This document shows positions 3,434-41,964 of a DNA stretch of 64,000 nucleotides, piece after piece; positions within the stretch are counted from its first letter, which is position 1, and every line of letters begins with the position of its first letter. Position numbers and translations under genes: made by a program. Location: positions 3,722,501 to 3,786,500 of the forward strand of contig NZ_CP030032.1 in NCBI RefSeq assembly GCF_003258315.1, in the 5' to 3' direction. Origin of the DNA: Bradymonas sediminis (lineage in GTDB: Bacteria; Myxococcota_A; Bradymonadia; Bradymonadales; Bradymonadaceae). The notes under the pieces are model-generated. The model was not told the origin of the DNA. It was given only the letters and a program-made list of their open reading frames with translations, and searched no databases.

Positions 3434-3664
3434 ATTCAGTCTCCAGTCGTCGGTTGGGAAATAACGTCGTATCTTCGAGAATTCCTGCTGTCAGAGGGTC
3501 AAACGCAGGGGTTCAAAAAACGATCTAATTTATTTTCAACCGAAGCCTCCAAGGCCGCGTGGGGCGAGTATTAGCGGGGGAGAGATTGCCTTCTGCGATC
3601 TCGCACTTATCTTGCGCTGGACTGATTTCAAGCTGATGAATTTTGATGACACGCAAGGAGTGAA

Positions 3665-6481
<2,817 letters not shown>

Positions 6482-6497
6482 TAATCTTCGCCGATAC

Positions 6498-6531
6498 AAA
6501 TGGGCGCGGCGGCCATGCGCCGCGCCCATTT
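6498..6531 (+). terminator. Possible terminator after ppc
   Basis: AAATGGGCGCGGC and its complement GCCGCGCCCATTT form a strong hairpin just past the ppc stop. Only three T residues follow in the arm, so termination efficiency is uncertain. Confidence 0.5.
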
Positions 6532-6669
6532 GCCCTGCGCCCATGGTGGCTCTATAGTGGAATCACGACACATATCAGGGTTGCTGTAGACCATCGCTCT
6601 CCGGGCCAGTCCGGCCGATGATCTGCCCGATATATTTCTCAAAACGAATTATATTCTCGGGAGCAGCCG

Positions 6670-7383: not shown

Positions 7384-7507
7384 ATCGGCCCGTTTAGTTA
7401 CGCGCGCGCGGCGGCCACGCCCATTGTCACCGATCCCCGCGTGCAGTATCCCCTCCTGCAGTATCCCCCATTGTCCGCAACGTTCCTGGATATAACTCGG
7501 ACCTTTC

Positions 7508-8236
7508 ATGATGCCTCACGACCTACTCGCCACCGTCACTCCTGCTTTTATCTCTAATATTTTTGAGTTCTTTTTTCTCACCGAAGCCGGGTATATTTCC
7601 CTTCTGGTAATTGTCTGCGCTGCGGTCTTCTATTTTATTTCCTGGATGGACCGACGCCGCGAAAAATGCTGGCGACGCGTCGGCGAGTCGCGCGGGCTGC
7701 GCTACGACGACAGTGGTAGCTATCCGAAACTAGGCGGGACTATCAATGGAGTCACGGTGGTCGCCGAGGTCATTCGGGTCCAAAAGAACTATGCGGTCCG
7801 CGTGACCGCTCGCCCAAGCACCACGCTTCCTGAGGGGTTATTTATTCGCCCGGAGGGGCTCTTTCAGAAGGTCGGAAAAGCGCTGGGCGGCGAAGATATC
7901 CAGGTCGGCGACCTACAACTCGACAAACGCTATATCTTTCAAGGCCAAGACCCCATCAAGACGCGTGAACTCATCAAGCACCCGGCGGTAAAAGACGCCC
8001 TACTCTCCCTGCAAAAACACACGGATTCGATGCGAGTTGAGCAGGGCGTGGTTTATCTTCGAGAACCAGAACAAGGGCGCAGTGAGGCAAGGCTCACCCG
8101 TTATATTGACCAGATCGTGGCCATCGCAGCCGCTTTCGACAAAGCAGCGAGCGACCTCGCCAAGCCTGACACGCCGCCGGCGCTGCCGCCCGAGGCGCTC
8201 GCCAGCAACTCTGGCGAGCCCGGAGATTGGTGGTAA
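7508..8236 (+). CDS. Membrane-anchored protein of unknown function, tandem family copy 2
   Basis: Family not recognised; 242 residues. A hydrophobic segment spans roughly residues 17-46 (FFFLTEAGYISLLVIVCAAV), then a basic DRRREKCWRR stretch, then a soluble domain ending in a Pro/Ala linker and the C-terminal GEPGDWW. It is the best-preserved member of the three-copy cluster and the reference for judging the others. The conserved extreme C-terminal Trp motif across copies could be a docking or membrane-contact element; this is inference. Start at the first of two adjacent ATG codons (7508 or 7511); neither has a strong ribosome site. Confidence 0.7.
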   Translation: MMPHDLLATVTPAFISNIFEFFFLTEAGYISLLVIVCAAVFYFISWMDRRREKCWRRVGESRGLRYDDSGSYPKLGGTINGVTVVAEVIRVQKNYAVRVTARPSTTLPEGLFIRPEGLFQKVGKALGGEDIQVGDLQLDKRYIFQGQDPIKTRELIKHPAVKDALLSLQKHTDSMRVEQGVVYLREPEQGRSEARLTRYIDQIVAIAAAFDKAASDLAKPDTPPALPPEALASNSGEPGDWW

Positions 8237-8349
8237 GCGCGAGCCCATAAATTAGGCACGCGTATCAAGCCGCGCAGTCAGGTCGGGCGCAATCTGCGAC
8301 TCTTCAGCCCCTGGCGGTGCCATATGATTTCCCACTATTTTTGATATAG

Positions 8350-8696
8350 ATGAGGGGGGCGCTCGCACCACTCTTCGGGCCGTTTATGAATCAGTATCTA
8401 TTTATTGCCGCTGTGATTTCGCCCCTTGTCGACGCCCTCCTTCTTCGCGCGGTGGGATATATTGGCGCGATGGCGCTTCTTGTCTGGGCCGCCTATGAAC
8501 TCCTTGAGTGGCGGGACAAGCGCTGTCAGAGTTACTGGGAGAGCGTGGGGAACGCCCTGGGGCTCAAATATCAAGGCCCCTTCTTACTCAAACTCAGCGG
8601 GACCCTCCCGCGCCGATCGAACCTCCGCCCCTGCCGCGCCGGCAAGCAGAGCATCTGCCGAACAGCGCGTCCAATGAGCCCAATGATTGGTGGTGA
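8350..8696 (+). pseudogene. Collapsed third copy of the tandem membrane protein family
   Basis: Frame 1 from 8350 (or ATG 8386) encodes the family's N-terminal helix and the 'WRDKRCQSYWESVGNALGLKYQGPF' region aligning with copy 2, up to about position 8607. The family's C-terminal end then appears in a different frame: PPAPIEPPPLPRRQ through SNEPNDWW and a TGA at 8694-8696, matching the Pro-linker and GEPGDWW tail of copy 2. About 150 codons of the middle domain are missing and the two ends are out of frame, so this looks like an internal deletion. The frame-1 reading continues to 8838 without resemblance to the family. The open N-terminal part could still yield a short membrane peptide. Confidence 0.7.
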
Positions 8697-8767
8697 TGCC
8701 CACCCAACGCATCCAAAGGCGGCGGGCACACCGCCGCCTCTGCCACGCCTGCAGGCCGGGCCAGATA

Positions 8768-9934
8768 TCAGGTCGCCGGCACCCGAATCATCGACGCTTT
8801 GCCCACGATCACGTCGATCATCTTGCGCGCGCGGGTGAAGACCGACTCCTGCACGTAGGGGATATTCATACGCTCGCAGAGCTCCTTCACCTTGGGCTGA
8901 ACCTTGCGATATTGCAGCATCGTCATATCCGGCCAGATATGGTGCTCAATCTGATAATTGAGCCACATCTGCAGCCAATCCCCCAGCTCATCACCGCATT
9001 TGTAATTGGCAGAGCCGACAATCTGGCGCAGGTAGAACTCATTGCGGCTCTTCACCGGCGCGTCGAAGCGGTACAGATCCTCGCCGGTATGATTGGGTCC
9101 AATCACCAGGAAAGCGTGGATATTGGTGAAGATCTCGGCCCAGATGCTATTCAAAAAGACGTTGGCCGCGGCCACCGGCCCGAGCGGAAGAAAAAGACTC
9201 GGGATGATGCCAAAGCGCCAGGTCGCGTGCGGGATCAGCGAGCGCATCCATAATTCGCGGCCGCGCTTATTAAAGGGGCTCAGCATCTCGGCGGGCTCTG
9301 GCGGCTCTTCCTTATTGCGCCGCGCGCGCGCCACCTGCATCACCGCCAACGTGCTGGGCGCGTAATAGACCCACTTCCAGGTGCCAGAGAGCGCCCCGAC
9401 AAAGAGATAGCGCAGCCAGCTGGGGACATCGTGCTCGCGCATCCACTCGGTATTGCGCTCCAAAAGATCCGGGTCCTCGTCCTCGCCCAGGTGGTAGTGG
9501 TGCAGGAAATCATGCTCCTCATGCCACGCCTCGGGATGAATCCAGTCCATCCAATCAAACAGCCGGCGCGCCCCTTTCCCAAAGACCTTGCTGGTGTATT
9601 TGGCCTCGATCCCCGGGACCTTATCATAGCCGCGGTGGCTGATATGGTGCATCAGCAGCCAGCGCGTGAGTAACCCCTGCGAGATCAGCATCCCTGAGAT
9701 CGGGTTCGGCACCATCCAGGCCGTGCCGTAGCCCAGGGCAGTGCACAACTTCCCCCAGCGCTCGATTTTCTTGAGATGGGCGATATCCGCGCTGGGATCG
9801 GCGTTGGTTTCAGCACGGATCTCGGTGGCCAATGCCTTGAGTTCGCGGGCAAGCTCCTCGAGATCAACCTGGTCAAGATCGAAGGCGGAGTCGGCTTCAA
9901 AGTCGTAGAGAGAGGGTGTGGGCGGCTTGGACAT
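8768..9934 (-). CDS. Membrane fatty acid desaturase
   Basis: Di-iron membrane desaturase introducing a double bond into acyl chains, likely for membrane fluidity. Three His boxes are present: HHISH near residue 95, HDFLHHYH near residue 140, and QIEHH near residue 320. The Gln in the third box is typical of front-end and related acyl-lipid desaturases. The 388-residue product has hydrophobic stretches between the boxes. I start at the ATG at 9934 (SKPPTPSLYDF) with TTGAGG upstream, rather than the in-frame ATG at 9988, which lacks a ribosome site. The next gene, divergently placed, is a cold-shock protein; a link to low-temperature adaptation is attractive but not shown. Regiospecificity cannot be told. 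Confidence 0.88.
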   Translation of the reverse strand: MSKPPTPSLYDFEADSAFDLDQVDLEELARELKALATEIRAETNADPSADIAHLKKIERWGKLCTALGYGTAWMVPNPISGMLISQGLLTRWLLMHHISHRGYDKVPGIEAKYTSKVFGKGARRLFDWMDWIHPEAWHEEHDFLHHYHLGEDEDPDLLERNTEWMREHDVPSWLRYLFVGALSGTWKWVYYAPSTLAVMQVARARRNKEEPPEPAEMLSPFNKRGRELWMRSLIPHATWRFGIIPSLFLPLGPVAAANVFLNSIWAEIFTNIHAFLVIGPNHTGEDLYRFDAPVKSRNEFYLRQIVGSANYKCGDELGDWLQMWLNYQIEHHIWPDMTMLQYRKVQPKVKELCERMNIPYVQESVFTRARKMIDVIVGKASMIRVPAT

Positions 9935-10318
9935 CGACGGCCTCAAATGACGGCTAGAGGGAATGAATAAGTTCGCGACCCCCGCCATATATCAGGTTCC
10001 CACGCGCTTTACGACAGGCGCAAAGCCGAGATACCCCTGAAAGATAACACCTATACTGAAACTTGATTGCTCGTAATACAAAAGGGCCGACGCCGAGATC
10101 CCTAGAATATTGGCGGTATAAATAATTTGACAGCCCCTCTTTTCCTTCCGATCCCACCTCTCTAGTCTCTACTTAGGTCGACTCCCTAACAAGTGGGGGC
10201 GATAATTCTCGCCAGAGCGTTATCCCCATTGCGCAGCCATTCAGACGCAAACTCACCACCAGGCGATCGGCCCGGCAGCATAAATTCATTCGTGCTCATT
10301 ACCAACGAGGGAAGGAAA
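9935..10318. other. Divergent intergenic region between desaturase and cold-shock gene
   Basis: No gene is supported here. The region is locally AT-richer than its surroundings and must hold the promoters of both flanking genes and the cold-shock leader. I see no convincing promoter pair or structured RNA. Confidence 0.6.
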
Positions 10319-10534
10319 ATGGCTCAGGGATTCGTGAAGTGGTTCAACAATGTCAAAGGCTACGGCTTCATCAACATCGACGGGGAGGACGAGGATATCT
10401 TCGTGCATTATAGCCAGATTCTTCAGGATGGCTTCAAAACGCTCAAACCCGAGGAGACCGTCGAATTCGAGCTCAAGCGCGGCCCCAAAGGGCTGCACGC
10501 GACCAACGTGCAACCGATTGAACCCTTAGAATAA
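10319..10534 (+). CDS. Cold-shock domain protein (CspA family)
   Basis: A 71-residue single-domain nucleic-acid chaperone that binds single-stranded RNA and DNA through the OB-fold of the cold-shock family. RNP1 appears as GYGFINI and RNP2 as DIFVHY, with the family start GFVKWFN. It is slightly longer than CspA, with an acidic insertion (DGEDEDIF) before RNP2. The ATG at 10319 is preceded by GGGAAGG; an in-frame start at 10193 would add 42 residues with no family match and is rejected. Whether this copy is cold-inducible or constitutive cannot be judged. Confidence 0.95.
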   Translation: MAQGFVKWFNNVKGYGFINIDGEDEDIFVHYSQILQDGFKTLKPEETVEFELKRGPKGLHATNVQPIEPLE

Positions 10535-10724
10535 CAGCAAAGGCCAGTCCACCCGGTGCGTTAAGCGGGTGTGTCGTAGCGACGTCAAGGGTGACTTCGC
10601 AGAATTTGAGTCGAGATTTGGTTATCCACCATCCGGAGCAAGACTCCCATCACTCGACTCATTCACTCACGGAGACGGGCAAAAACTCGTCGAAGAGACA
10701 CACGGGGATAGGAAAAGAACCATC

Positions 10725-10991
10725 ATGCCATACCTGACTTCATATCTGTGGAAACTTCCCAAATTCACCTCGGCTCAACCCGCTCAAAGCGACCCGAACA
10801 CCGAATCTGACGCGCCATGCCTCCTGGCAGCCGCGTGTCGAGACTGCGGCAACTATAATTTCCCGCCCAAATCCAATTGCCGCTATTGTGGCAGCCCGCG
10901 CATCCGGACCGTCTCGGTCGGCCCCGAGAGCCCGGTTAAAACGCGCAAATGGGCATTTTCGCCGCCCGACTGCCCCCAAAAACCCAACTAA
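10725..10991 (+). CDS. Small zinc-ribbon protein, DUF35-ribbon-like
   Basis: An 88-residue protein. Its centre, CRDCGNYNFPPKSNCRYCGS, has two CxxC knuckles spaced as in the rubredoxin-like zinc ribbon that precedes the OB-fold of DUF35 proteins, including the PP before the second knuckle. No OB-fold follows, so this is a free-standing ribbon. Partner and role are unknown. I use ATG 10725 because a purine-rich AGGAAAAG lies upstream; an in-frame ATG at 10569 would also work. A strong palindrome follows at 11042-11084. Confidence 0.5.
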   Translation: MPYLTSYLWKLPKFTSAQPAQSDPNTESDAPCLLAAACRDCGNYNFPPKSNCRYCGSPRIRTVSVGPESPVKTRKWAFSPPDCPQKPN

Positions 10992-11041
10992 GACCGGCGA
11001 CGAACCGCTCGCCTCGTTCCTCGACCCGGAATTTGTGCTAT

Positions 11042-11084
11042 GAGATTGAGGCGCGATCGCTATTGCCGATCGCGCCTCAATCTC
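11042..11084. repeat. Perfect 18-bp inverted repeat in front of the kinase gene
   Basis: GAGATTGAGGCGCGATCG (11042-11059) and its exact complement (11067-11084) flank a 7-nt loop. No T-run follows on plus, so it is not a classic terminator. It ends 14 bases before the kinase ATG and could be a terminator for the zinc-ribbon gene, a leader structure limiting kinase translation, or an operator. Confidence 0.75.
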
Positions 11085-11098
11085 GCACAATCGGGCCG

Positions 11099-12973
11099 AT
11101 GAATAACGACCAAACTACAATTGCGAATCGCGAAGATGTTGGGGATACGCCAGTTGAGTTAGACAAACTCACAGGCCAACTCATCTCCGGGCGCTACCAG
11201 GTCGAAGAGTGCCTGGGGTGTGGCGCCATGGGTGAGGTCTACCGAGCCACCCACACGCTGATGGCCAAAACGGTGGCGATCAAAGTCCTGCGCTCTCAGC
11301 TTGAGCAACGTGACGATCTGGTCGAGCGTTTCCGCCGCGAAGCCCAGGCCGCCGCCCATATCGACCACCCCAATATCTGCGCGGCCAGTGACTTCGGTCA
11401 GATGGACGACGGCACCTTCTTTCTGGTCATCGAATATCTTGAGGGACACACCCTCGAAGACGCCATCGAAGCTCGAGCTCCGATCTCCGCCGCCCAGACC
11501 ATCGACATCGCCGTCCAAGTCGCCTCCGGCCTCAGCCGCGCCCACGAACTCGACGTGATTCACCGGGACCTGAAGCCCGAAAATATCATGCTCGTCGCGC
11601 GCGAGGACGGCCAAGATTTCGTCAAGATCCTCGACTTCGGCGTCGCCCGCGTGCGCCTCACCGAACAACACGAAAATGCCCAACTCACCCAGGCCGGCAC
11701 CGTCTGGGGAACCCCTTTATATATGGCCCCCGAGCAAGCAGCCGGCGGCGAGGTCGACGGTCGGTCGGATCTGTATAGCCTCGGCGTCATCCTCTACGAG
11801 ATGCTCTGCGGACGCCCGCCCTTCAAGGACTCGAACCCCGCACGCGTCATGGCGATGCACCTCACTCACCAACCCCGGCCGCCCTCGGAATACGCGCCCG
11901 AGGCGAAGATTCCACTCGCGCTGGAAACACTGGTCCTGGAGTTGCTGGACAAAGATCCCAACAGCCGCCCGGCCTCGGCCAGCGCCCTCATCGAGCGACT
12001 CGAGGCCTGCCGCGACGCAAATAAGCTCCCCATCGCCCAGCGCGCCCAGGATATCGCCGACCAGAGCTCGGTCTTGCTTAAACGCGCGGTGAACTCCTCA
12101 GAAACCGGCGTGGCGCGCGCGCTCACATGGTTCCGCGCCCAAGAAACGCTCACTCAGGGCATCGTCCTGGGCGTGAGCGCAGCGCTGCTTTTAGCCGTCA
12201 TTTTGGTGCCGACCATCGCCGTCATCAGCACCATCGCCGGTTCCTCCGGGTCAACTACCGCGGCGGCCCAGGCAAAGAGCAAGAAAGTCAGGCGCAATCT
12301 TAAGGAAAAGCGCGCCGATTTCATCAAAGAAGCCGGGCTCGACGATGTGCCCGTCGCCCTGGCCGAGAACCGGACCTCCGACGCCCTCTCGGCGCTCGAC
12401 AACGCCGCAGCAACCTACGGAGATAACCCCCATTTTGCCTACCTAAGCGGGCGAACCAACGCCGTGCGTGGGCGCTGGCAGGCGAGCATCGACGCCTATA
12501 AAAAAGCACTCTCAGCCGAGCCTCTCTACGCCAATGACTCCCAATTGGTTGACGATATCTTTGTGCGCTTTTCGGACCCCAAAAAACACCGCGCCGCGCC
12601 CGCTCAAGAGCTCATCGAAGAGTATTTGGACACCGTCTACGCCACCCAAAAGCTCGCCGAAGTCGCCAGCGAGAGCGACTCAGGTTCGGCGCGAAAACGC
12701 GCCTATCAGGTGCTCGAGAGCACCAAGCGCATGGACGATCTCGAGGATTGGAGTCGCCTCAGCATCCAAATGGGCAACGCCAAGAACTGCAACGCGCGTA
12801 AAAAGATCATCCCCGACATCGTCAAGGCAGGCGACCCACGCGGCCTCAAGGTCCTCAGGGCCTATGCAGCCAAAAGCACGCGCGGTTGCGGTTTTCTCTC
12901 CCTCGAAGACTGTCATGCCTGCATGCGCGGCGACCTGCGCGACGCCATCCAAACCCTTGAAAAAGAAGAATAA
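11099..12973 (+). CDS. Hanks-type Ser/Thr protein kinase with transmembrane segment
   Basis: A 624-residue membrane kinase. The N-terminal kinase domain (about residues 32-300) has a Gly-rich loop (LGCGAMGEV), the ATP-anchoring Lys in VAIKVL near residue 62, HRDLKPENI near residue 155, DFG near 180, and the APE region as MAPEQA. All catalytic residues are present, so it should be active. A hydrophobic segment near residues 352-380 (VLGVSAALLLAVILVPTIAVI) crosses the membrane. The C-terminal part contains TPR-like helices (LSGRTNAVRGRWQASIDAYKKAL) and probably senses or binds partners outside the cytoplasm. The start chosen is the ATG at 11099, just after a strong palindrome; the ribosome site is weak. 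Confidence 0.92.
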   Translation: MNNDQTTIANREDVGDTPVELDKLTGQLISGRYQVEECLGCGAMGEVYRATHTLMAKTVAIKVLRSQLEQRDDLVERFRREAQAAAHIDHPNICAASDFGQMDDGTFFLVIEYLEGHTLEDAIEARAPISAAQTIDIAVQVASGLSRAHELDVIHRDLKPENIMLVAREDGQDFVKILDFGVARVRLTEQHENAQLTQAGTVWGTPLYMAPEQAAGGEVDGRSDLYSLGVILYEMLCGRPPFKDSNPARVMAMHLTHQPRPPSEYAPEAKIPLALETLVLELLDKDPNSRPASASALIERLEACRDANKLPIAQRAQDIADQSSVLLKRAVNSSETGVARALTWFRAQETLTQGIVLGVSAALLLAVILVPTIAVISTIAGSSGSTTAAAQAKSKKVRRNLKEKRADFIKEAGLDDVPVALAENRTSDALSALDNAAATYGDNPHFAYLSGRTNAVRGRWQASIDAYKKALSAEPLYANDSQLVDDIFVRFSDPKKHRAAPAQELIEEYLDTVYATQKLAEVASESDSGSARKRAYQVLESTKRMDDLEDWSRLSIQMGNAKNCNARKKIIPDIVKAGDPRGLKVLRAYAAKSTRGCGFLSLEDCHACMRGDLRDAIQTLEKEE

Positions 12974-13039
12974 ACACGCCAAGCACGACTTCGCTCCATT
13001 GCTTGCGCGCCCCGCTGTGAGCCCCCAAAAGAGAAGTTT

Positions 13040-13888
13040 ATGAGTGACCCCATCACCCTCCAGATCCTCGGAAGCGGCTCCAGCGGCAATTGCGCCTTTG
13101 TTCGCGTCGGCGACACACGCCTGCTCATCGACGCGGGCATCTCGTGTCGGCGCATCGAGCAGACGCTGGCGAGCCACGGCGAATCCATCGAGAACCTGAG
13201 CGCCATCCTGGTCACCCACGAGCACTCGGACCATATTCGCGGGCTCAAGACGCTGCTGTCGAAATACCCGGACACCGAGATATTCGCCACCCGCGGCACC
13301 CAGATCGGCAGCGAGCGACTCGTCGAGGCGGCCCAATCGTGGACGACGATCAAGGCCGAGTCGCCTTTTGAGATCGGCGAGGTCCGGGTTCACCCCTTCA
13401 AGCTAAGCCACGACGCCAATGAACCGACGGGGTTTCGCCTCGACGCCGACGGCTTCTCGATGGCATTTGCCACCGACCTCGGCGTCTGGAATAACACCAT
13501 CCTCGAGCACCTCAGCGGATGCCGAGTGATTATCTTGGAGGCCAATCACGACCTCGATATGCTGCGCGCGGGCCCCTACCCGGCTTATTTGCAAAAGCGC
13601 GTGGCCTCGAGTCGCGGCCACCTCTCCAACGACCAGGCCCGCTCTTTGCTCAGCCGGCTGCCGGCGCCTCGCCCCGAGTGGGTGATTTTAGCGCACCTTA
13701 GCGCCAAGAATAACGCGGCCGACGTGGCCCTGAACGAAGTAAAAAAGGCGCTCAAACCCGAGGATACGACGCGCCTCATCGCGGCCGGCCCTAAACCCGC
13801 CGCGCCCTTCGACGTTGCGCGCCTCGCCACGCCCAAACGCCCCGCGAAGACACCCTCCCAGGGCTCGCTTTTCTCGACCTCGAATTAA
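13040..13888 (+). CDS. MBL-fold metallo-hydrolase, YycJ/WalJ-like
   Basis: A 282-residue metallo-beta-lactamase-fold hydrolase. The metal motif HxHxDH is at residues 60-65 (HEHSDH), after the characteristic LGSGSSGNC start of the YycJ/WalJ group. Further ligands fit FKLSHDANEP and ILEANHD. The best-studied relative, WalJ, has been linked to coordinating cell division with replication and to 5'-3' exonuclease activity, so this protein is more likely a nucleic-acid enzyme than a beta-lactamase. The downstream lytic transglycosylase gene begins five bases after the stop, suggesting co-transcription. The C-terminal basic tail is not conserved in the family as I know it. Confidence 0.85.
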   Translation: MSDPITLQILGSGSSGNCAFVRVGDTRLLIDAGISCRRIEQTLASHGESIENLSAILVTHEHSDHIRGLKTLLSKYPDTEIFATRGTQIGSERLVEAAQSWTTIKAESPFEIGEVRVHPFKLSHDANEPTGFRLDADGFSMAFATDLGVWNNTILEHLSGCRVIILEANHDLDMLRAGPYPAYLQKRVASSRGHLSNDQARSLLSRLPAPRPEWVILAHLSAKNNAADVALNEVKKALKPEDTTRLIAAGPKPAAPFDVARLATPKRPAKTPSQGSLFSTSN

Positions 13889-13893
13889 CTTAG

Positions 13894-15819
13894 ATGATGA
13901 TGATCAATATGAAGTTTTCGCACGCGAACGCCCGTCGCCTGATGATCGGCCTGAGCGGCCTCGTTGCCCTGAGCCTCGCTGCGCCCGCCAGCGCGCAGGA
14001 ATCGCAAACGCGCCGCGACGCCAGCCCCAGCGTCGACGCCGCCGCGGAGTGGATCTCGGTGGCCGCCACCGCCGGTTTTGACGCCTCCGCCGAGGCCTTC
14101 GAGGCGCAGAACGAAAGCGGCAGCGACGACTATAAAGAGGTCCAGGAGCTCGAAAAGCTCGAGGAGGAGGCGATGCACACCGTCGTCATCGGCCATGGCA
14201 CCGACTTCGACCCCGAACTCCTCGCCCCCTTCCACGGCACGCTCAGTCTGATTCACGCCGATCTTGGCTACCTCTCGGCGCTGCATCGACTCTCGGAGAC
14301 CGCCCCGACCGGCTCCGCCCTCTTGGACCGCCCCGACGTCCAGAAGCGCCTCGCCGACACCAAGGTCCTGGGCTTAACCCAGCACGACCAGGCCGCGGTG
14401 CGCGCGTACCTGGACTTCTTCGACGGCCGCGGAAAACGCACCCTGGCCGGCTGGATCCGGCGCATGCACGTCTTCGCGCCGATCATCCTGGAGACGCTGC
14501 GCGACAAGGGCCTGCCCGAGGATCTGATCTATGTGGCGATGATCGAGAGTGGGTTTAGCCCCTGGGCGCGCTCCCCGGCTGCGGCGGTCGGCCTCTGGCA
14601 ATTTATCCGCTCCACCGGGCGCTATATGGGCCTGCGCATCGACGCCTACGTCGACGAGCGGCGCGACCCGGTGAAATCGACCATCGCCGCCGCCGAATAC
14701 CTGACCTATCTCTACGATAAATTCGGCTCCTGGCCGCTCGCCCTGGCCGCCTATAACGGCGGGCCGGGCTTGATGGCGAAGTCGATCCGCAAATATAACT
14801 CCAACGATTATTGGTATATTTGCCGCCAAAACGGCCTCTATGACGAGACGCGCCGCTACGTGCCCAAGGTCATCGGGGCGGCGCTGGTGGCCAAGAACGC
14901 TGATGTGTTTGGCCTCGACATGATCAAGGGCCACGCGCCCTTCGAATTCGACTTGGTCGAGGTGCCGCCGAGCACCCGCCTAAGCCTGGTCTCCAGCGCG
15001 GTCGGCGCCGAGTTGGACACCATCAAAAAGCTCAACCCGGCGCTGCTCACCGGCGCCACCCCGCCCGGCAAAGACACCTATTCCCTGCGCATCCCGGTCG
15101 GCACCACAAAAAAGTTCGTCCAGAACTTCGACAAGATCCGCCTCGATAACGGCGCCGAGCACATCACCCACCGGGTGCGCTTCGGCGAGTCGGTGGAGAT
15201 GATCGGTGAGACCCATCGGGTCGCCCCGCGGGTGCTGCGCGCGGCGAACGGGCTCAAAAAAGGCCAGATGCCGCCGATCGGCCAGGAGCTTATCGTCCCG
15301 AAAAAGGCGCTTGGCACTTGGAATCCGCGCGGTAAAAGCAGCAGCAAAAAGGTCATCCTGCTGCCCTCGGTCGAGTATAAAAACCCGAAGCTCAAGCGCT
15401 ATTTTTACCGAGTCCAGAGCGGCGACACCCTCAAGGCCATGGGGCGCGGCCTGGGCATCAACCCGGCCGACATCACCCTGTGGAACCACCTCGACCCGAA
15501 CGCCGCGCTCCAAAGCGGGCTCTATCTGCAGATCTTTTTGCCCGAAGACCGCGCCACCGATTCCCTGGCGCTGACCGCCGAATCCGAGGTCACCCCCATC
15601 GTCATCGGCAGCGCCGCGCACAAAAAGCTCAAGGCCAAGAAGACCTCGAGCAGCGGGCGCGGCCGCCGCTGGCACCGGGTGCGCTCCGGCGAGAGCCTCT
15701 GGCTGATCGCGCGGCGCTATAAGGTCACGGTCAAAAAACTCAAGCGATGGAACCGCTCGCTTCGGCGCAGCAACACCTTGCAGCCCGGCCAGAAGATTCT
15801 GGTATACCCGGGGCGTTGA
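13894..15819 (+). CDS. mltD: Membrane-bound lytic transglycosylase (MltD-like) with three LysM domains
   Basis: Cleaves peptidoglycan glycan strands to form 1,6-anhydro-muramyl ends during wall remodelling. Residues 1-38 form a signal peptide ending in ASAQ. The SLT domain follows, with the catalytic Glu near residue 218 in AMIESGFSPWARS, then AVGLWQFIRSTGRYMGL and AAYNGGPGLM. Three LysM peptidoglycan-binding modules begin near residues 425, 505 and 593; the last ends the protein. The start contains three consecutive ATG codons, with a further one at 13909. No lipobox is clear, so it may be periplasmic rather than lipid-anchored as in E. coli MltD. It is likely co-transcribed with the preceding metallo-hydrolase. 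Confidence 0.9.
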   Translation: MMMINMKFSHANARRLMIGLSGLVALSLAAPASAQESQTRRDASPSVDAAAEWISVAATAGFDASAEAFEAQNESGSDDYKEVQELEKLEEEAMHTVVIGHGTDFDPELLAPFHGTLSLIHADLGYLSALHRLSETAPTGSALLDRPDVQKRLADTKVLGLTQHDQAAVRAYLDFFDGRGKRTLAGWIRRMHVFAPIILETLRDKGLPEDLIYVAMIESGFSPWARSPAAAVGLWQFIRSTGRYMGLRIDAYVDERRDPVKSTIAAAEYLTYLYDKFGSWPLALAAYNGGPGLMAKSIRKYNSNDYWYICRQNGLYDETRRYVPKVIGAALVAKNADVFGLDMIKGHAPFEFDLVEVPPSTRLSLVSSAVGAELDTIKKLNPALLTGATPPGKDTYSLRIPVGTTKKFVQNFDKIRLDNGAEHITHRVRFGESVEMIGETHRVAPRVLRAANGLKKGQMPPIGQELIVPKKALGTWNPRGKSSSKKVILLPSVEYKNPKLKRYFYRVQSGDTLKAMGRGLGINPADITLWNHLDPNAALQSGLYLQIFLPEDRATDSLALTAESEVTPIVIGSAAHKKLKAKKTSSSGRGRRWHRVRSGESLWLIARRYKVTVKKLKRWNRSLRRSNTLQPGQKILVYPGR

Positions 15820-32154: not shown

Positions 32155-33129
32155 TTATTCTGCGTCTTCTTCGGCCCGGGCCGCTCGATTCGCCAAGGCG
32201 GCCTTGCTCGGCCACATCAAACTCGCCAGCACCGACCCGCCGATCATCAAGATGATCACGCCGATCGACACCGCCGGAGAAATCGGCAATTGCTCGTGAA
32301 AACCGATCTTGATCGCCGCAAAGAAGAGCACCAACGCCAGACCGTAGTGCAGGTACTCAAGGTCGTCGAGCACGTGGCTCATCGCGATATAGAGCGAGCG
32401 CAGACCAAGGATAGCGAAGGCGTTAGACGCATAGACCAGGTAGGGGTCATCACTGACCGACAGCGCCGCGGGCACCGAGTCGATGGCGAAGAGAACGTCG
32501 GTCAGCTCAATCGCGATCAGCGCCACAAATAGCGGCGTGGCGACCCATTTCCCGGCCACCTTGGCGAAGAAGTCGTGGCCGTGGAGCTTATCCGTAATCG
32601 GGATATGGTTCGACAACCAGGCGACGAGCTTGCTGTCCTCGTGCTCGGCGTTCGGGTCCTCGAAGAACGCCTTAATCGCGCCCAGGGCGAGGATACCGGC
32701 GAGCACATAGGTCATCCAGGACCACTGCTGCAAGGCGGCGACGCCCAGCCAGATAAAGAGTCCACGGAAGATAAGCGCCCCGAAAATCCCCCAGGACAAC
32801 ACCCGTCGCTGGTTTTCTTTGGGGATCTTCAGGCTTCCGAAGATCAATAGGAATACGAAGAGGTTATCGACGCTCAACGCCTTCTCGATAAGATACGCGG
32901 CGATATATTCCTGCGCCTTAATGCCACCGTGTTCCCACCAGACATAGCCGGAGAACGCCAGGCCGACGCCGATCCAGACAATACTCCAGGCGATCGCGTT
33001 TTTTCGCGTCTCGTGCTTGTCGTCGCGATGGGAGAATAGGTCGATAAAAAGCAAAATCGACAGCACCACCACAAACACAACCCAGTGGCGGATATCGGGA
33101 TTCGTCACGTATTCTAAAAAGTTGTCCAT
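32155..33129 (-). CDS. TerC/Alx family membrane protein
   Basis: A 324-residue inner-membrane protein with about eight or nine transmembrane segments. TerC-family hallmarks are ALSVDNLFVFLLIF and IELTDVLFAIDSVPA, each carrying acidic residues inside helices that are likely metal ligands, and NAFAILGLRSLY. Members such as Alx and MeeF export manganese or other metals, partly to load exoenzymes. It is probably a manganese exporter here, but the substrate is inferred. The start ATG is at 33129. I looked for the yybP-ykoY riboswitch often found before such genes and do not see a convincing one. The neighbouring sbcD needs manganese; that may be coincidence. Confidence 0.85.
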   Translation of the reverse strand: MDNFLEYVTNPDIRHWVVFVVVLSILLFIDLFSHRDDKHETRKNAIAWSIVWIGVGLAFSGYVWWEHGGIKAQEYIAAYLIEKALSVDNLFVFLLIFGSLKIPKENQRRVLSWGIFGALIFRGLFIWLGVAALQQWSWMTYVLAGILALGAIKAFFEDPNAEHEDSKLVAWLSNHIPITDKLHGHDFFAKVAGKWVATPLFVALIAIELTDVLFAIDSVPAALSVSDDPYLVYASNAFAILGLRSLYIAMSHVLDDLEYLHYGLALVLFFAAIKIGFHEQLPISPAVSIGVIILMIGGSVLASLMWPSKAALANRAARAEEDAE

Positions 33130-34769: not shown

Positions 34770-36137
34770 ATGCATCAAGATGGATCGACCAACCGATGTT
34801 GGATGTTTTTGGCTGGACTGATGATTTTTGTCTTGCCGGCGATGAGCTGGGCGGCTGAAGAAGGCGCCCAACACCAGGTAGACTCGGACCTTTATCGAGT
34901 CCTGATCCTGCTGGCAATCGTCGGCGCGGCCTATATCATCACCCACCTTCTCCTGGAGCGACTCGCCGAGCGTTTCGGCTTCGTCACCGGCACCGAATAT
35001 ATCGTCCTGGGCGCGCTCCTGGGACCCGTATTTGGTGTGCTGGACACCGAGACCATCGGCGCGCTGACGCCAGTCAATGTCCTGGGGACCGGCTCGCTGG
35101 GTCTTTTGGCCGGCCTAAACCTGCGCTTTCGCGGGTTTACTCCCTTCCGCATGCGCGCGTTTCAAAGCGGCATCACCATCGCCCTCGGCACCCTGTTGAC
35201 GGTCGTGGGCGTTCCGCTTTTAGCGCTGATCTATTTTGACTTCCCCGGCGGCGTCGACCCATTTATGCCGATCTTGCTCTGCTCGGGCGCGGTCGCGGTG
35301 GTCGTTAATACCGGACCGCTGCGGGCCATGGCGGCCTTCTGGGGCGCCGAGGGCAGCACCACCGACTTTAGCGTGCAGGTCGCGCGCTTTTGCTCCTCGG
35401 TGGGCATCATCGCCTTCGGCCTCATCTTCTGTTTTTATAACGAGACCACCGTCCCCTTCGACGTCGACCCGCCCTTTGTGTGGATGACCTGGCTGGGCAT
35501 CCACCTGCTGCTGGGCAGCGTGCTAGGCCTGATCTTTGCGGGCTTCCTCATCCGGGAGCTCTCCGACGATATGCTCATCACCATCTTTATGGGGATGGTC
35601 ATCTTCACCAGTGGCTTCGCTTACTATCTGCACCTGTCGCCCATCTTTGTGAACTTCGTGCTCGGCGTGGTGCTCATCAACGTCAGCCAGCATGTCGAGC
35701 ATGTGCACAAGCGCCTGCTCGAGATTCGCCGCCCGCTTTATATCATCCTCTTTTTCTTCGCCGGCGCCGGCTGGGCGCTGAGCGCCGAGCCCATCTGGGG
35801 TTACCTGCTCGTGTTTGCCTATCTCGTGCTGCGCTTTGTCGGCCGGATGATCGGCAGCATCGGCGCCTCGCGCATCACCAAGGACCGCTCTTATGGCTCC
35901 GGGCTGTACCGCGCCTTGCAGGGCTCGGGCGCGCTCAGCGTCGCGATGCTGCTCGACTTCACCCAGGTCTTCGGAAACCTCGAATACGCGGGCTTAATGT
36001 ATAACGGATTATTGATCGCCATCGTCCTCAGCGAGATCGCCTCCTACCCGCTTACGCGCAACTGGCTCATCGATGTGGCCGACGTCGCCTCCCCGGAGAA
36101 ACGCGGCTCATCGACTCAGACTCAGGAGGCTAGCTAA
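34770..36137 (+). CDS. CPA2/Kef-type cation:proton antiporter-like membrane protein
   Basis: A 455-residue inner-membrane protein. Residues 12-28 may act as a signal or first helix (MFLAGLMIFVLPAMSWA). About 11-12 further hydrophobic segments include EYIVLGALLGPVFGVL and an SIGASRITKDRSYGSG loop, in the layout of monovalent cation:proton antiporters of the CPA2 group. The usual antiporter Asp pair is not obvious, so it may be a transport-impaired or regulatory relative. It is the first gene of a three-gene operon: its stop TAA shares a base with the ATG of the giant fusion gene, and CAGGAGG sits just before, indicating translational coupling. Confidence 0.75.
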   Translation: MHQDGSTNRCWMFLAGLMIFVLPAMSWAAEEGAQHQVDSDLYRVLILLAIVGAAYIITHLLLERLAERFGFVTGTEYIVLGALLGPVFGVLDTETIGALTPVNVLGTGSLGLLAGLNLRFRGFTPFRMRAFQSGITIALGTLLTVVGVPLLALIYFDFPGGVDPFMPILLCSGAVAVVVNTGPLRAMAAFWGAEGSTTDFSVQVARFCSSVGIIAFGLIFCFYNETTVPFDVDPPFVWMTWLGIHLLLGSVLGLIFAGFLIRELSDDMLITIFMGMVIFTSGFAYYLHLSPIFVNFVLGVVLINVSQHVEHVHKRLLEIRRPLYIILFFFAGAGWALSAEPIWGYLLVFAYLVLRFVGRMIGSIGASRITKDRSYGSGLYRALQGSGALSVAMLLDFTQVFGNLEYAGLMYNGLLIAIVLSEIASYPLTRNWLIDVADVASPEKRGSSTQTQEAS

Positions 36138-39100
36138 TGTCGCAAGTTATTACGATTGTGATCCTGCTGGCCTTGATGTACGCGCGCCAGTTCTTCGACT
36201 TCAGCGACGGCAGCTTCGGCTCGATGCACCCCGACAGCCTGGTCGCCACCGGATTTATTATCCTGGCCGCGTTCACCATGGGCGAGCTGTTCAAGCGCCT
36301 CAAGGTCCCGGCGCTGCTGGGCTATATCGCCGCCGGTATCGTCTTCGGCCCGGACCTCAGCCAGATCGTCTTTGGCTCAACCGAGCAGACGATCTTCACC
36401 AAAGACGTCATCAATGACCTGGCGCTCATCAATATCCTGACCGTCGGCGTCATCGGCACCCTGGGTGGCGGTGAGCTCAAGATCTCGGACCTCAAAGAAC
36501 ACGCCTCCACCATCGTGACCGTGATCGGGGTTGTCTTCGCGGTCGTGGTGCCCTCCTCTGCCCTGATTTTGCTGGGCATGGCGACATTCTTCCCGTCCAC
36601 CGCGCCCTTCTTGATGGACGTGCCGACCTCCACAAAGCTCGCCGCGGCCATGCTCTTTGGCGTCTTCGCCTTCGCGATGAGCCCCACGGTCAGCCTGGCG
36701 ATCCTGCAGGAAACCCGCTCCAAGGGCCCCTTTACCTCCTTGATGCTCGGCACCGTCATTCTCGGTGACCTGGTCCTGGTCATCGGCGTGCTGCTCGCCG
36801 CTGACTTCGCGGTCCTGGTGATGGGCCCCACCGGCATCACGATGGCAGCGGCCCAGGAGATGTTCATCAAGATCGGCCTGGAATTCGGCTGGGCGATGGT
36901 GCTCGGGCTGATCACCGGGCTGCTCTATATCGGCTATTTGCGCTTCGTCGCGCGCGAAAAACTCCTCTTTACCGTCGGCATTATCTTCGCCACCTCGGCG
37001 GTCGCCGAGATGGTGCACGCCGAGACCCTGGTGACCTTTTTGGTCGCCGGCTTTATCGTGCAAAACTTCTCCAAGCATGGTCATGATATGATCCATTCGC
37101 TGGAGAAGATCAGCCTGCCGGTCTTCGTCATTTACTTTATGACCCAGGCCGCCTCGCTCGACCTGATGCAGGCGGTGCACTTTTTGCCCCTCACCCTGGT
37201 CATGGCGACCGCGCGCGTGGTCTCCCAGGTCGGCGGCGCAAAGATCGCCCTTAAGCTGCTCAAAGCGCCCGAGGTCGTGCGCCGAAACCTCCCCTTCGCC
37301 ATGCTCTCGCTGGGCAGCGTCGACATCGTGCTGGCCGCCCTGGTCGCCTCGAAGATCCCCTCCTGGGGTGGCGACCTTCAGGCCGTCGTGATGGGCAACG
37401 TCATCATCTATATCATCGTCGGCCCGGCGGTACTCAAATGGGTGCTGGGGCGCGCCGGTGAGACCGAAGAGGCCCGCCAAACCGGCAGCGAGGAGGTCGC
37501 CGAATTGGACCGAATCGTCGGCGACGAAATGGGCGACGAGGAGCTCTTGGAGCACCCCGAGTTCACCGATCCTCGCCTGAAATTGCGCCTGGAGCAGGTG
37601 CGCGACGAGCTCACCACCTGCTATAAGAGCACCCTGGTTGAGCGCATCGAGACCCACGGCGAGAGCCTGCAGGAGTTGCTCGACCGCATTCACGAAGTCC
37701 GCCATAAGGCGATCTCCGAGCTCTTTGAATTGCTCGAAAACGCAGGCGATACGCCCACCCAAAAGCTGGGGCCGCGCGTCAAACGCCTGCACGTCCAATT
37801 CCGCCAGACGCTGCAACCCCAGATCGACCTGCTCGAGCATATCGAGGCGATGCCCGTCACCCCTCAGAGCACCGAAAAGCTGCTGGTCGACGTCCACCAA
37901 CTCGTGCACTTCGAGGAGAGCTACCGCGTCCAACTTGAGCCCTGGCTGCTCGAGGCGAGCCCCGAAGACTCGCTGTGGATGCGCGCGGTGAAGGTGGGTC
38001 GGCGCACGCGCAATTTTGTGCGCCGCGGCTGCCACCGAACCATTCCGCTGGGCCGTTTGTGGCGCTTCTATCTCGAATTATCGCTGCCCGGCTACCTGGC
38101 CAGCGCCGTGGCCGCGACCGCCGAGCAAAACGAGCAGCTCTGGCAACATCTTGGCCTGCATTTGCGCCGCGTGGACGACCTCTTTGAGCGCGTCGTGCGC
38201 ATTCTCTCGAGCGAAGACATCACCGTCGGCTCCGCCCAGAGCGATAGCGATGGCGAGGGCGATGAGCAGACCCCGGCGGTCAAGGTCGTCGCGCGGGGTC
38301 GCTTGCTGGCGCCGTCGGTCGACGCGCTCCCGATGAGCATGTCGGGCGAGCCCGGTGAAGATGAGGATGACGACGAGGCTGACGAGCACGACGACGCCCA
38401 CGCGCACGAAGATGACGAGGACGCCAGCGGCGAAACCGCGCTCCCCGAGGAACCCGAAGAGGTGAGTGCCCCGCAGCCGGCGCTCAGCGCCGTCGAGGCC
38501 GCGCTCGCCCAGGCGCGCGCCAGCCACGAATCGCTCTGCAAAGACGCCAAAGCCCTCGACGCCCAGCTCGAGGTCTACGTCCAATCGCGCCGCAAGCGCT
38601 TCGGCTTCAGCGTCGAGCACGCCTACGCCGACTTTATCGAAGCCGTCGGCCAGGCCGGCACGCTCAGCCTGCCCGGGTACCGCTACCGCGCGTCGCTGCG
38701 CTACGACGAAGCCCACCGCGCCCAGGTCCGCCTGCAGAGCCGCCTTGGGCGCGCCGGCGACCTGGTCGAGGGCTACCAGGGCTGGATCGTGCTCGACCAC
38801 CAATTGATCCTCTTCTTGCACTGGTTCCGCACCTACCAGCAGCGCGTCTTGATCACCTTCCAGACCCGCTTCGAGGACGGCTGTGTGCGCCAGATCAAGC
38901 AGCTGAAATTGCGCTGTGAGGACCGCCCTACCGACGCCGCGCTCGACGATGACGCCTCGGCCCAGCCGACCTTCGACTGGCCGCATTGGTACGGCAATAA
39001 GATCAACCCGGCGCTAGAGAACGCGCGGATCTCGCTGGACCAGGCGCTCACCGACTTCGACCAGGGCATCATCATTCGCCGGCTGATGGACGTGCTCGAA

Positions 39101-40933
39101 GCGCGCATCGCGCGCTTCTCGGAGCGGGTGAATCTGCTCGCCCAGAACCCGACCGAATCGCTCGCCGAACAGAGCGATGTCGAGACGGTCAGCGTGCCGC
39201 TGCGGGCCTGGTATTTCTCCAAATTATTGCGCGAAATCGCCCTTCGCCTGCTCGAGTCCAACGAGCGCGCCGAGCGCACCCTTCGCCGCTCGATGGTCGC
39301 CCTGGGCGAGATGCGCCTGGGCCTTGAAACGAGCCTGGTCTCCCACCAAAAAGAGCTGCGCGAAGGCGAACTCCAGTCCGCGCCCGATGCCCCGGACCTC
39401 GAAGAGGCCCAGCGCGCCAACGAGGTCGCCCAGCAGGGACTCGAGCGCGCGATCACCCAGGCCGAGGAGCTTATCCGACTCATCCAACACGATGAGCACG
39501 ATATGCGCATGTGGATCATCGAGGAGACCACCAAGGTCGCCCGCGACTCCACGATTCCCTTTTTGGAGCATCGCCTCAAAGAGGTGATGGCCGAGCTGGA
39601 GAAGAACCGCGGTCCGAGCCTTGCGCGCCGGCGAGTGCGCCCGATCGTCAACCGCGCGCGCAACGCCTATCACCGCGTCGCACCGGTCATCGAGGAGATC
39701 CGCCACGACATCTATAGGCACCTCAACGGCAAGCCAGCCGCCGACCCGAAGATCGCGCCGGGGCGCTCCCACGCGCGCGCTCGCCTGCTGCGCAGCAGCC
39801 TTGAGACCCCCGAGAGCGGCCTTAAACTCGCCACCCCGGCGATCTACCGCCGCCTATTCTCGCCGGTGCCCGTCGATATCCCCGACTTCTATGTCGAGCG
39901 CCCCCAGCTTGAGCAGGATTGCCTGGACGCGGTGGACCGCTGGTTCAACGGCAACCCCACCGCGATCCTCATCGGCGGCGACGCCGGCATGGGCAAGCGC
40001 ACGCTCATCCACCACGTGCTGCCGATTCGCCTCTTCAGCAAATATAATGAGATCGCCGAAGAGCAGCTTCAGATGGTACGCCTGGACGAGGCCGACGAGA
40101 CCGAGCGCGAGCTGTGCGAGGCGTTTTTCCCGCTGCTCGAGGGCAGCTATCCGCGCACCTTCTTGGAGCTCGGCCAGCACCTCAGCGCCCGCAACGACCG
40201 GCGCATCGTGTTCGTGGAGAACGGCGACAAGATCTACTCGCGCACCCGCGAGGGCCTGTCTTTGAGCGAGCGCTTTTTGACCATGATGGAGCGCTCCTCG
40301 GATAATATCCTGTGGATCCTGCTGATGAATAAGCCGGCGGCGACCCTGCTCGATACCGCGGTGCAAATCGGAGATTATTTCACCGACAGCATCGAGCTAG
40401 ACGCGCTGAGCCCGGCCAATATCGAGCGCATGATCATGTCGCGCCACAAGGTCAGCGGCTTCGAGATCACCTTCTTGCCGCCCGAGGTTCGCTATCTGCA
40501 GCGCGTCAAACACCCGCTGGACACCCGCGACGCGCTCAAGAACCCGCGCCAGGAATTTTTCCGGCGCCTCGGAAAGCTGTCGGGCGGAAACCCGCTGCTC
40601 GCCCTGCTCTATTGGAGCGAGTGCGCGCACCTGGACGCGTCGGATAAGTCGCGCATCCTGGTCGACCCGCTACCGGACGAAGAGGTCACGCTGACCGAGC
40701 ATCTGTCGCTGCAAAAGAAGTTGCTGCTGGCCACGCTCGTCCAGCACAGCGCGCTGAGCGCCCCGCGGCTTAGCCGCATCCTGCGACTCGACCTCGATGA
40801 GGTGCGCACCGAGCTCAGCCACCTGCGCCGCCAGGGGTTCGTGGACCTGGTGCCGGGCACCAACACCTATCATATGCCGGCGCTTGCCGGCGCGCTGGTG
40901 ACCCGAGAATTGCGCGCCGAGAACCTTATTTAA
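36137..40933 (+). CDS. Giant fusion: CPA2 antiporter + long cytoplasmic region + C-terminal P-loop ATPase
   Basis: A 1598-residue protein. Residues 1 to about 440 form a Kef/NhaP-like antiporter with many membrane helices (TMGELFKRLKVPALLGYIAAGIVFGP, KHGHDMIHSLEKISLPVF). A long, mainly helical cytoplasmic part follows, split by a highly acidic, His-containing linker near residues 734-775. From about residue 1245 comes a P-loop ATPase module: Walker A GGDAGMGKRT near 1279, a Walker B-like RRIVFVENGDK, LWILLMNKP as sensor-like strand, a KLSGGNPLLALL segment typical of AAA/STAND lids, and a C-terminal winged-helix-like region (HSALSAPRLSRILRL) to the end. No TrkA-N or USP domain is seen. ATP-dependent gating or assembly of the antiporter is my inference. 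Confidence 0.8.
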   Translation: MSQVITIVILLALMYARQFFDFSDGSFGSMHPDSLVATGFIILAAFTMGELFKRLKVPALLGYIAAGIVFGPDLSQIVFGSTEQTIFTKDVINDLALINILTVGVIGTLGGGELKISDLKEHASTIVTVIGVVFAVVVPSSALILLGMATFFPSTAPFLMDVPTSTKLAAAMLFGVFAFAMSPTVSLAILQETRSKGPFTSLMLGTVILGDLVLVIGVLLAADFAVLVMGPTGITMAAAQEMFIKIGLEFGWAMVLGLITGLLYIGYLRFVAREKLLFTVGIIFATSAVAEMVHAETLVTFLVAGFIVQNFSKHGHDMIHSLEKISLPVFVIYFMTQAASLDLMQAVHFLPLTLVMATARVVSQVGGAKIALKLLKAPEVVRRNLPFAMLSLGSVDIVLAALVASKIPSWGGDLQAVVMGNVIIYIIVGPAVLKWVLGRAGETEEARQTGSEEVAELDRIVGDEMGDEELLEHPEFTDPRLKLRLEQVRDELTTCYKSTLVERIETHGESLQELLDRIHEVRHKAISELFELLENAGDTPTQKLGPRVKRLHVQFRQTLQPQIDLLEHIEAMPVTPQSTEKLLVDVHQLVHFEESYRVQLEPWLLEASPEDSLWMRAVKVGRRTRNFVRRGCHRTIPLGRLWRFYLELSLPGYLASAVAATAEQNEQLWQHLGLHLRRVDDLFERVVRILSSEDITVGSAQSDSDGEGDEQTPAVKVVARGRLLAPSVDALPMSMSGEPGEDEDDDEADEHDDAHAHEDDEDASGETALPEEPEEVSAPQPALSAVEAALAQARASHESLCKDAKALDAQLEVYVQSRRKRFGFSVEHAYADFIEAVGQAGTLSLPGYRYRASLRYDEAHRAQVRLQSRLGRAGDLVEGYQGWIVLDHQLILFLHWFRTYQQRVLITFQTRFEDGCVRQIKQLKLRCEDRPTDAALDDDASAQPTFDWPHWYGNKINPALENARISLDQALTDFDQGIIIRRLMDVLEARIARFSERVNLLAQNPTESLAEQSDVETVSVPLRAWYFSKLLREIALRLLESNERAERTLRRSMVALGEMRLGLETSLVSHQKELREGELQSAPDAPDLEEAQRANEVAQQGLERAITQAEELIRLIQHDEHDMRMWIIEETTKVARDSTIPFLEHRLKEVMAELEKNRGPSLARRRVRPIVNRARNAYHRVAPVIEEIRHDIYRHLNGKPAADPKIAPGRSHARARLLRSSLETPESGLKLATPAIYRRLFSPVPVDIPDFYVERPQLEQDCLDAVDRWFNGNPTAILIGGDAGMGKRTLIHHVLPIRLFSKYNEIAEEQLQMVRLDEADETERELCEAFFPLLEGSYPRTFLELGQHLSARNDRRIVFVENGDKIYSRTREGLSLSERFLTMMERSSDNILWILLMNKPAATLLDTAVQIGDYFTDSIELDALSPANIERMIMSRHKVSGFEITFLPPEVRYLQRVKHPLDTRDALKNPRQEFFRRLGKLSGGNPLLALLYWSECAHLDASDKSRILVDPLPDEEVTLTEHLSLQKKLLLATLVQHSALSAPRLSRILRLDLDEVRTELSHLRRQGFVDLVPGTNTYHMPALAGALVTRELRAENLI

Positions 40934-40975
40934 TTCGCATTTTGGACGCGCTTCGATCGCGCCAACGAGACCGCT

Positions 40976-41854
40976 ATGCCCGAACCCATCACAACCCCCG
41001 AGCCGGCTCAGTCCCTGATGGGACCGACCACCGAGACGCCCGTGGACCCGGTCACCGAGCCCACGCTGGACCAATCCCTGCTGCAATTTCAGGAGGCGAT
41101 CACCTACGTCGAGCCGCAGTGGTTTACGCTGACCTGGGCGCTGATCATGCTCGCGGTGACGCTGCTGCTAAGCTGGGCGATGGGCCAGCTGATGCAACTG
41201 GCCGGGCTGCAGCGGGCGCGCAAATGGTTGGCGCTGATCCGCGTGCTACTGTGGAGCTTTATCGTGGTGAACCTGGCCTTCGCGCTGAGTTCGATGGTCA
41301 GCGAGATGCATTGGCTGCCGGTGGGCATCGTCGCCCTGTCGATGTCCGGGCTGGCCGCGCTCCCGTGGCTGCGCAATATCACCGCTGGGCTGGCTATCGC
41401 CTTCGACAGCCGCTTCGAGATCGGCGACCCGGTGCGCCACGGCCAAGCCACCGGCGAGATTACGCATTTTGGCGCCCGCGCCGTGACGCTTCGCGCCGAC
41501 GACGGCACCCTTCACCAGGTCCCCAACCAAATCTTCGCCCAAACCTCGGTCACCCTCATCGAGTCCGAGGGCGACGCCGCCTGTGAAATCCTGGTGGTGA
41601 TCCCCCAAGGCGTCTCCCCCGAGCGCGCCATGCACCTGGCCAAACAGGCCGCATTCCTCACTCCGCTGGCCTCTCCCCGCCACAGCCCTGAAGTCTATTT
41701 GGAGATGGGCGACCACAGCCCCGAGAGCATCGAGATGCGCATCCGCGGCTGGGCCTTTGACCCATCGTGCCGCGAAGCCTTCCAGAGCGACGTCGTCGCC
41801 CGCATCCACGACCTGCTGCGCAGCGAGAAGTCTTCGCGAAACAGCACGACCTAA
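40976..41854 (+). CDS. MscS-family mechanosensitive channel
   Basis: A 292-residue inner-membrane protein. A polar N-terminus rich in Pro and Thr precedes three or so helices, then the channel-lining region and beta domain (GLAIAFDSRFEIGDPVRHG, GEITHFGARAVTLRADDGTLHQVPNQ), the conserved MscS pattern with PN at its end, then a C-terminal alpha/beta domain. It should open on membrane tension to release solutes. It starts 42 bp after the giant fusion gene on the same strand, so it probably shares the transcript, adding an efflux valve to the antiporter pair. The helix-3 Gly/Ala packing pattern is less regular than in E. coli MscS. Confidence 0.88.
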   Translation: MPEPITTPEPAQSLMGPTTETPVDPVTEPTLDQSLLQFQEAITYVEPQWFTLTWALIMLAVTLLLSWAMGQLMQLAGLQRARKWLALIRVLLWSFIVVNLAFALSSMVSEMHWLPVGIVALSMSGLAALPWLRNITAGLAIAFDSRFEIGDPVRHGQATGEITHFGARAVTLRADDGTLHQVPNQIFAQTSVTLIESEGDAACEILVVIPQGVSPERAMHLAKQAAFLTPLASPRHSPEVYLEMGDHSPESIEMRIRGWAFDPSCREAFQSDVVARIHDLLRSEKSSRNSTT

Positions 41855-41910: not shown

Positions 41911-41964
41911 CCGCAACAGCCCCCTCCGCCTGCTGCGCAGGCACCTCCCCCTTTTAGGGGGAGG
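41911..41964. repeat. Partial copy of the cloverleaf-like repeat family
   Basis: The stretch CGCAACAGCCCCCTCCGCC through TGCTGCGCAGGC matches 61365-61395 with few differences, including the GCCTGC/GCAGGC hairpin. It is followed by its own hairpin CCTCCCCC/GGGGGAGG (41944-41964). The right-hand arms of the 61369 element are absent. Confidence 0.65.

Follow-up and report, generated by a model that had tools for sequence, protein, structure and literature searches.

How does a cation antiporter come to end in a P-loop ATPase-like module, and why should a mechanosensitive channel be encoded directly behind it? Well-studied bacteria mostly devote separate genes, with RCK-type control, to K+ uptake, K+/H+ exchange and mechanosensitive release, and STAND-type modules are familiar chiefly from cell death and immunity. 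At the locus described here, one conserved operon appears to pack K+/H+ exchange, mechanosensitive release and, in many relatives, K+ uptake together with a STAND-type module. The locus lies in the window, by which we mean the whole 64,000-nucleotide stretch of Bradymonas sediminis DNA that was analysed. The original prediction described three coupled genes, and we confirmed all three open reading frames. Their positions in the window, with the parts of gene B, are as follows.

34770..36137, plus strand: gene A, antiporter-fold partner protein, 455 aa (fold model and profile comparison)
36137-40933, plus strand: gene B as a whole, 1598 aa (single open frame, no internal stop)
36137..37486, plus strand: gene B residues 1-450, predicted cation/proton antiporter transmembrane part (PF00999, E 1.8e-20)
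37487..39811, plus strand: gene B residues 451-1225, long helical middle (predicted structure, hhalign)
39812..40933, plus strand: gene B residues 1226-1598 and stop, predicted STAND/ORC-type P-loop module with winged helix (motifs, predicted structure)
40976..41854, plus strand: gene C, MscS-type mechanosensitive channel, 292 aa (PF00924, E 3.9e-12, over cut-off)

The stop codon of A overlaps the start codon of B in the sequence TAATG, exactly as predicted; an AGGAGG ribosome site lies 6 nt upstream, and B is separated from C by 42 bp. As consensus matches only, a promoter-like element ends at 34768, upstream of A, and a terminator-like stem follows C at 41944-41964. Further upstream of the operon, the minus strand encodes a TerC family membrane protein (PF03741, window 32155-33129), which is outside the conserved set.

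Is the fusion in B genuine? A scan of species-representative genomes with a motif of B returned 80 loci, and the removal of places fetched twice left 72 fused loci, a few of which are cut by contig ends. As the loci were selected by the B motif, the presence of B in them is by construction, while the neighbouring genes are independent of the selection. The fusion occupies a single reading frame in all 72 non-redundant loci, including those of single-contig genomes. Most of these loci belong to Myxococcota and some to Bdellovibrionota (e.g. L095, L130, L131 and L142); the carriers include many predatory and related bacteria, and cultured examples are Lujinxingia, Enhygromyxa and Paraliomyxa. 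In relatives from the same family, order and class, B is one frame of about 1350-1700 residues with 21-60% identity. Because the same frame recurs across many assemblies, single-contig genomes among them, the fusion is genuine and an assembly or annotation artefact is out; the 1598-residue fusion of the original prediction is real. A second PF00999 protein in the window's genome (L049) was considered as another fusion and rejected, since half of its frame is masked sequence. By eye, it resembles a normal antiporter with a tail similar to TrkA_C.

The gene order around B is also conserved. Two arrangements prevail: A-trkA-trkH-B-mscS accounts for 34 listings and A-B-mscS, the window included, for 30; about 13 places are counted twice in these figures. 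Among the 58 non-redundant loci with more than 5 kb of upstream sequence, A lies upstream of B in 57, TrkA is present in 39 and TrkH in 37. MscS lies directly downstream of B in 61 of the 64 non-redundant loci in which the contig continues (59 were detected by script, and in two more, L094 and L141, the match to MscS is inside a longer frame). In L021, MscS is about 2 kb off B, and no MscS was found in the sequence downstream of B in L081 and L097. In some relatives, long antisense ORFs overlie A or C in the high-GC DNA, and A and C were located by translated search. The conserved three-gene order that the original prediction had anticipated is thus borne out by the counts.

In most loci outside the window's family, trkA-trkH sit between A and B. 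The TrkA of these relatives contains TrkA_N and TrkA_C by Pfam and exceeds the NCBIfam TrkA cut-offs, and their TrkH is identified by Pfam. The operon of the window's family is without trkA-trkH, and the window's genome encodes a single TrkH family protein (694 residues), well away from the operon. Judged by its gene content, the A-B-C set of the window's lineage is a reduced version of a larger K+ operon that also includes trkA and trkH.

Unfused A-B antiporter pairs occur in five loci from Acidobacteria, Aminicenantes and Thermoanaerobaculales (L090, L091, L139, L143 and L149), where MscS and Trk are absent nearby. These pairs are possible relatives of the pre-fusion state. In L146, a second A-B pair (12093-15277), the B of which has only 439 residues, stands in the opposite orientation beside a full operon.

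We compared the two antiporter-fold proteins. Residues 43-437 of B match PF00999 (Na_H_Exchanger) over the cut-off. A itself matches no Pfam family, and its profile finds no credible relative among PDB sequences. Nevertheless, A aligns with the antiporter part of B over 372 columns at 99.4% in the profile comparison. Moreover, the model of A (mean pLDDT 88.8) has the NapA/NhaP type of fold, with NapA 5bz2 matched at Z 32.1 and rmsd 4.1 over 371 aligned residues. By this model, A is a predicted antiporter-fold paralogue. The original assignment of A as a CPA2-like antiporter stands for the fold, although no Pfam match accompanies it; the CPA2 label falls short of the NCBIfam threshold, the CPA2 family model TIGR00932 scoring 35 bits on B, below its cut-off of 238.3.

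The ion-binding site distinguishes the two proteins. The TM5 carboxylate is present in B as Asp211 (codon 36767-36769), and the residue aligned with it in the window's A is Ser209 (codon 35394-35396). In the residue comparison across loci, the TM5 position of B is D or E in every copy; in the alignment of relatives, the acid is found in 17 of 18 rows, the exception being L035 from the window's family. The N-terminus of B is expected to be a cation/proton antiporter, and exchange is predicted for it. Within the window's family, the TM5 site of A is occupied by Ser, Cys, Ala or some other uncharged amino acid, and many Polyangia copies have Asp or Glu there. Because the acid is replaced by an uncharged residue, A of the window's family looks inactive as an exchanger. 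Without the ion-binding carboxylate, it would serve as a structural or regulatory half. Antiporters of the NhaA/NapA/NHE fold are dimeric, and for this reason A may be expected to pair with B as a paralogous antiporter-fold subunit.

Two observations concern the TM5 site of B. In the Polyangia copies (loci within L092-L145), a Lys precedes the TM5 Asp to form KD, and the window's family has Ala or Gly at this position. In L035 (G005, 3449-12061), which has lost the TM5 acid from the B antiporter, an overlapping frame after MscS encodes an 826-residue protein that appears by eye to be a further cation/proton antiporter, as if transport had shifted to it.

What follows the antiporter in B? A Pfam search finds no TrkA_N (KTN/RCK) match at E up to 1. 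The AlphaFold2 model of the cytoplasmic part (residues 441-1598; mean pLDDT 84.9, pTM 0.63) consists of long helices with a few short strands up to about residue 1160, a loop-rich link and, last, a P-loop domain of alpha/beta type that bears a winged helix. The helical middle, about 775 residues long, is predicted to contain short beta-hairpins and an acidic, low-confidence linker at about 695-777. Its two halves form a weak internal repeat (hhalign 79%, E 1.6e-5).

The C-terminal module is weakly matched by AAA_16 in the window's B (residues 1262-1364), and the orthologous C-terminus in L035 exceeds the Pfam cut-offs for AAA_35, NACHT, AAA and MarR_2. In the structure comparison, the module model matches Orc/Cdc6 with Z 15.8 and rmsd 3.7 over 249 aligned residues, and further matches are Apaf-1, NLR proteins and TnsC. 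According to the model, the C-terminal module of B is a STAND/ORC-type fold with a winged helix. These structural matches show that the original guess of a P-loop ATPase of AAA/STAND type with a winged-helix-like end was right in fold.

The nucleotide motifs vary among the copies. In the window's B, Walker A reads GDAGMGKRT (G1281-T1289), with Arg at the Mg-binding Ser/Thr position, and Walker B reads VFVEN (1358-1362), so that both depart from the STAND consensus (GxxxxGK[ST] and hhhhD[DE], respectively). The window and its close relatives share GxxGxGKR[ST] and hhhEN. Several relatives have changed or lost Walker A (GRTS, GKAA and GHPPAS). GKT/S and hhhDD, the forms found in STAND proteins, are preserved in many copies from Polyangia and Bdellovibrionota. 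The P-loop glycines are almost invariant across the copies, the window copy has the Walker A lysine (Lys1287), and a GxP-type lid motif is present in it as GNP (1484-1486). The coupling of ATP to ion exchange that had been suggested, in the sense of active ATP use, is therefore not supported. Since these motifs are degenerate, nucleotide sensing or scaffolding seems likelier than ATP-driven work in the window's lineage, and the module is more probably a nucleotide-binding sensor or scaffold.

In its strictest form, scaffolding would mean that the module is a pseudo-ATPase that binds no nucleotide in most members and simply holds the antiporter, its partner subunit and MscS together. The Walker A variants and the EN of Walker B in the window's group agree with this explanation, as does the conservation of Arg1436, which is retained more widely than the Walker motifs, and of the C-terminal part despite Walker loss. 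However, the intact motifs of the many Polyangia and Bdellovibrionota copies, the lysine in the window copy and the near-invariant glycines count against it, and we consider a pure scaffold unlikely.

A different view of the module comes from its neighbour. C contains the MS_channel beta domain (PF00924, 46.5 bits versus a cut-off of 20.2), consistent with its original designation as an MscS channel. We also found a second giant membrane protein, hereafter called type II (B being type I), which ends in the same STAND module. Type II has a hydrophobic N-terminus, followed by a long coiled coil, several transmembrane segments and then the module. The module is the only part it shares with B (hhalign 100%, E 1e-46, 351 columns). 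The type II copy of the window's genome (G000:C1:4498797-4503272, locus L039 2802-7273) is followed by an MscS gene, as in all 21 type II loci in which the contig continues; a 22nd locus, L170, ends near the contig edge and is outside this count. In both the MscS tree and the module tree, a single change divides type I from type II; support is 99 for the MscS of type II and 94 for the module, and both are quick trees with some long branches. The other MscS proteins of the window's genome stand apart in the MscS tree. The congruent splits in the two trees fit a single old partnership between module and MscS, which would have taken two carriers. The module is present in 115 of the 331 sampled Myxococcota genomes.

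What, then, could the operon do? TrkAH takes up K+, antiporters of the NhaA/NapA/NHE fold swap K+ or Na+ for protons, and MscS releases solutes upon downshock. The lasting arrangement of TrkAH, antiporter and MscS in one operon suggests a role in K+ and turgor homeostasis, of which the window would carry a reduced form, regulated by the antiporter-STAND protein and equipped with an MscS of its own; we judge the chances of this reading to be about even. The fusion, the folds, the gene order, the residue patterns and the congruent trees on which it draws are direct results. We propose that the B antiporter would exchange a monovalent cation, most likely K+ and possibly Na+, for protons. The STAND/ORC-type module, carried on the helical arm of B, may act as a nucleotide- or conformation-dependent switch. 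Because the module is the constant partner of the adjacent MscS, it would probably set antiporter and channel together, and it may contact the channel. Under normal conditions, cation/proton exchange would proceed slowly, and an osmotic downshock would lead to solute release. In the relatives, TrkA-TrkH in the same operon would provide the uptake arm; because trkA-trkH are missing from the operon of the window's family, we infer K+ specificity for the window from these relatives. The window's relatives L074, L075 and L085 are Bradymonadales, and the order inhabits chiefly saline environments (PMC7460792), which fits the turgor-homeostasis reading.

Several findings count against it. With its GKR[ST] sequence, the Walker A of the window's group is degenerate, and some copies have lost the motif, which disfavours a nucleotide switch there. 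In addition, two loci are without MscS, a third (L021) has it only about 2 kb away, and the B of L035 is without the TM5 acid.

In a more specific version, the STAND/ORC-type switch would be a dedicated gate-keeper of MscS. It would dock on the channel and link its opening to the nucleotide state or to the state of the fused antiporter, so that one protein, next to the K+ uptake pump, sets both K+/H+ exchange and emergency release. We put this forward tentatively, as possible but rather doubtful. If it is true, a STAND protein controlling a mechanosensitive channel would represent a novel mode of regulation, one found in two architectures. If the module gates either the channel or the antiporter, it would offer a testable link from nucleotide or conformational state to turgor.

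The winged helix allows another interpretation, in which B sits in the membrane and regulates transcription of its own operon, its winged helix binding DNA in the manner of CadC or ToxR. The C-terminus does match MarR/ArsR-type helices, and the fold resembles the DNA binders ORC and TnsC. However, STAND and ORC proteins ordinarily have a winged helix behind the P-loop, the transport residue is retained in the fused antiporter, and transcriptional control would leave the pairing with MscS in two architectures unexplained. We consider this interpretation improbable.

STAND proteins are common in antiviral defence, and the operon could on that ground serve in defence, opening the channel and the antiporter on infection so as to kill or arrest the cell. 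This is very improbable: A, B and C have no PADLOC match at E 0.01 (the library comprising the systems known by 2023), and two relatives yield weak P-loop or HTH matches only. Moreover, K+ genes are conserved within the operon, and its presence throughout the window's family is steady, whereas defence genes are scattered.

That the genes simply lie side by side and share no function, as the two loci lacking MscS and the unfused pairs without nearby MscS or Trk in Acidobacteria and others might suggest, is hardly credible given the order preserved across two phyla, the overlapping reading frames and the congruent trees.

How does the operon, read as a K+/turgor system, compare with the known ones? 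The original prediction recognised no described family with an AAA/STAND module on a CPA2 antiporter, and we likewise found no account of an antiporter-STAND fusion or of the operon in the open-licence papers searched. Among the nearest known systems is KefB/KefC, the glutathione-gated K+/H+ system of the CPA2 family, which like B consists of an antiporter transmembrane part and a cytoplasmic nucleotide-binding regulatory region. In Kef, the well-known K+/H+ antiporter, this region is a KTN/RCK domain, and E. coli releases K+ both by Kef and by mechanosensitive channels (PMC10224563). In contrast, B has in place of KTN/RCK a STAND/ORC module borne by a helical arm of 775 residues, a paralogous subunit A in place of KefF/KefG, and a dedicated MscS gene in its operon.

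Besides NapA/NhaP, the closest folds to A are the Na+/H+ exchangers SLC9C1 and SOS1, which resemble B in having very large cytoplasmic regulatory regions. Unlike B, they are eukaryotic and their regulatory parts are not of the STAND type; that of SLC9C1 comprises a voltage sensor and a cyclic-nucleotide-binding domain. The module of B shares the P-loop domain, the helical lid with its GxP-type motif and the winged helix with STAND and ORC-Cdc6 proteins (Apaf-1, Orc1 and TnsC), but it terminates an ion antiporter, has no repeat sensor behind it, and is degenerate at the catalytic residues in the window's group. C is an MscS-type channel, distinguished from other MscS and MscK proteins as the dedicated partner of a STAND protein. 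Type II resembles a split MscK in outline only (signal peptide, coiled coil and several transmembrane segments), and no Pfam match to MscK domains was found in it. The trkA and trkH genes of the relatives are ordinary members of TrkAH; unlike the usual TrkAH genes, they lie between two antiporter-fold genes, the second of which is fused to the STAND module, and they are absent from the window's operon.

Finally, two STAND modules occur together in L031 / L079 (1-10153): the tail of one module protein is followed by MscS, A, B and another MscS. The second module in this locus has a Walker A that has decayed to GEPGHPPASL.
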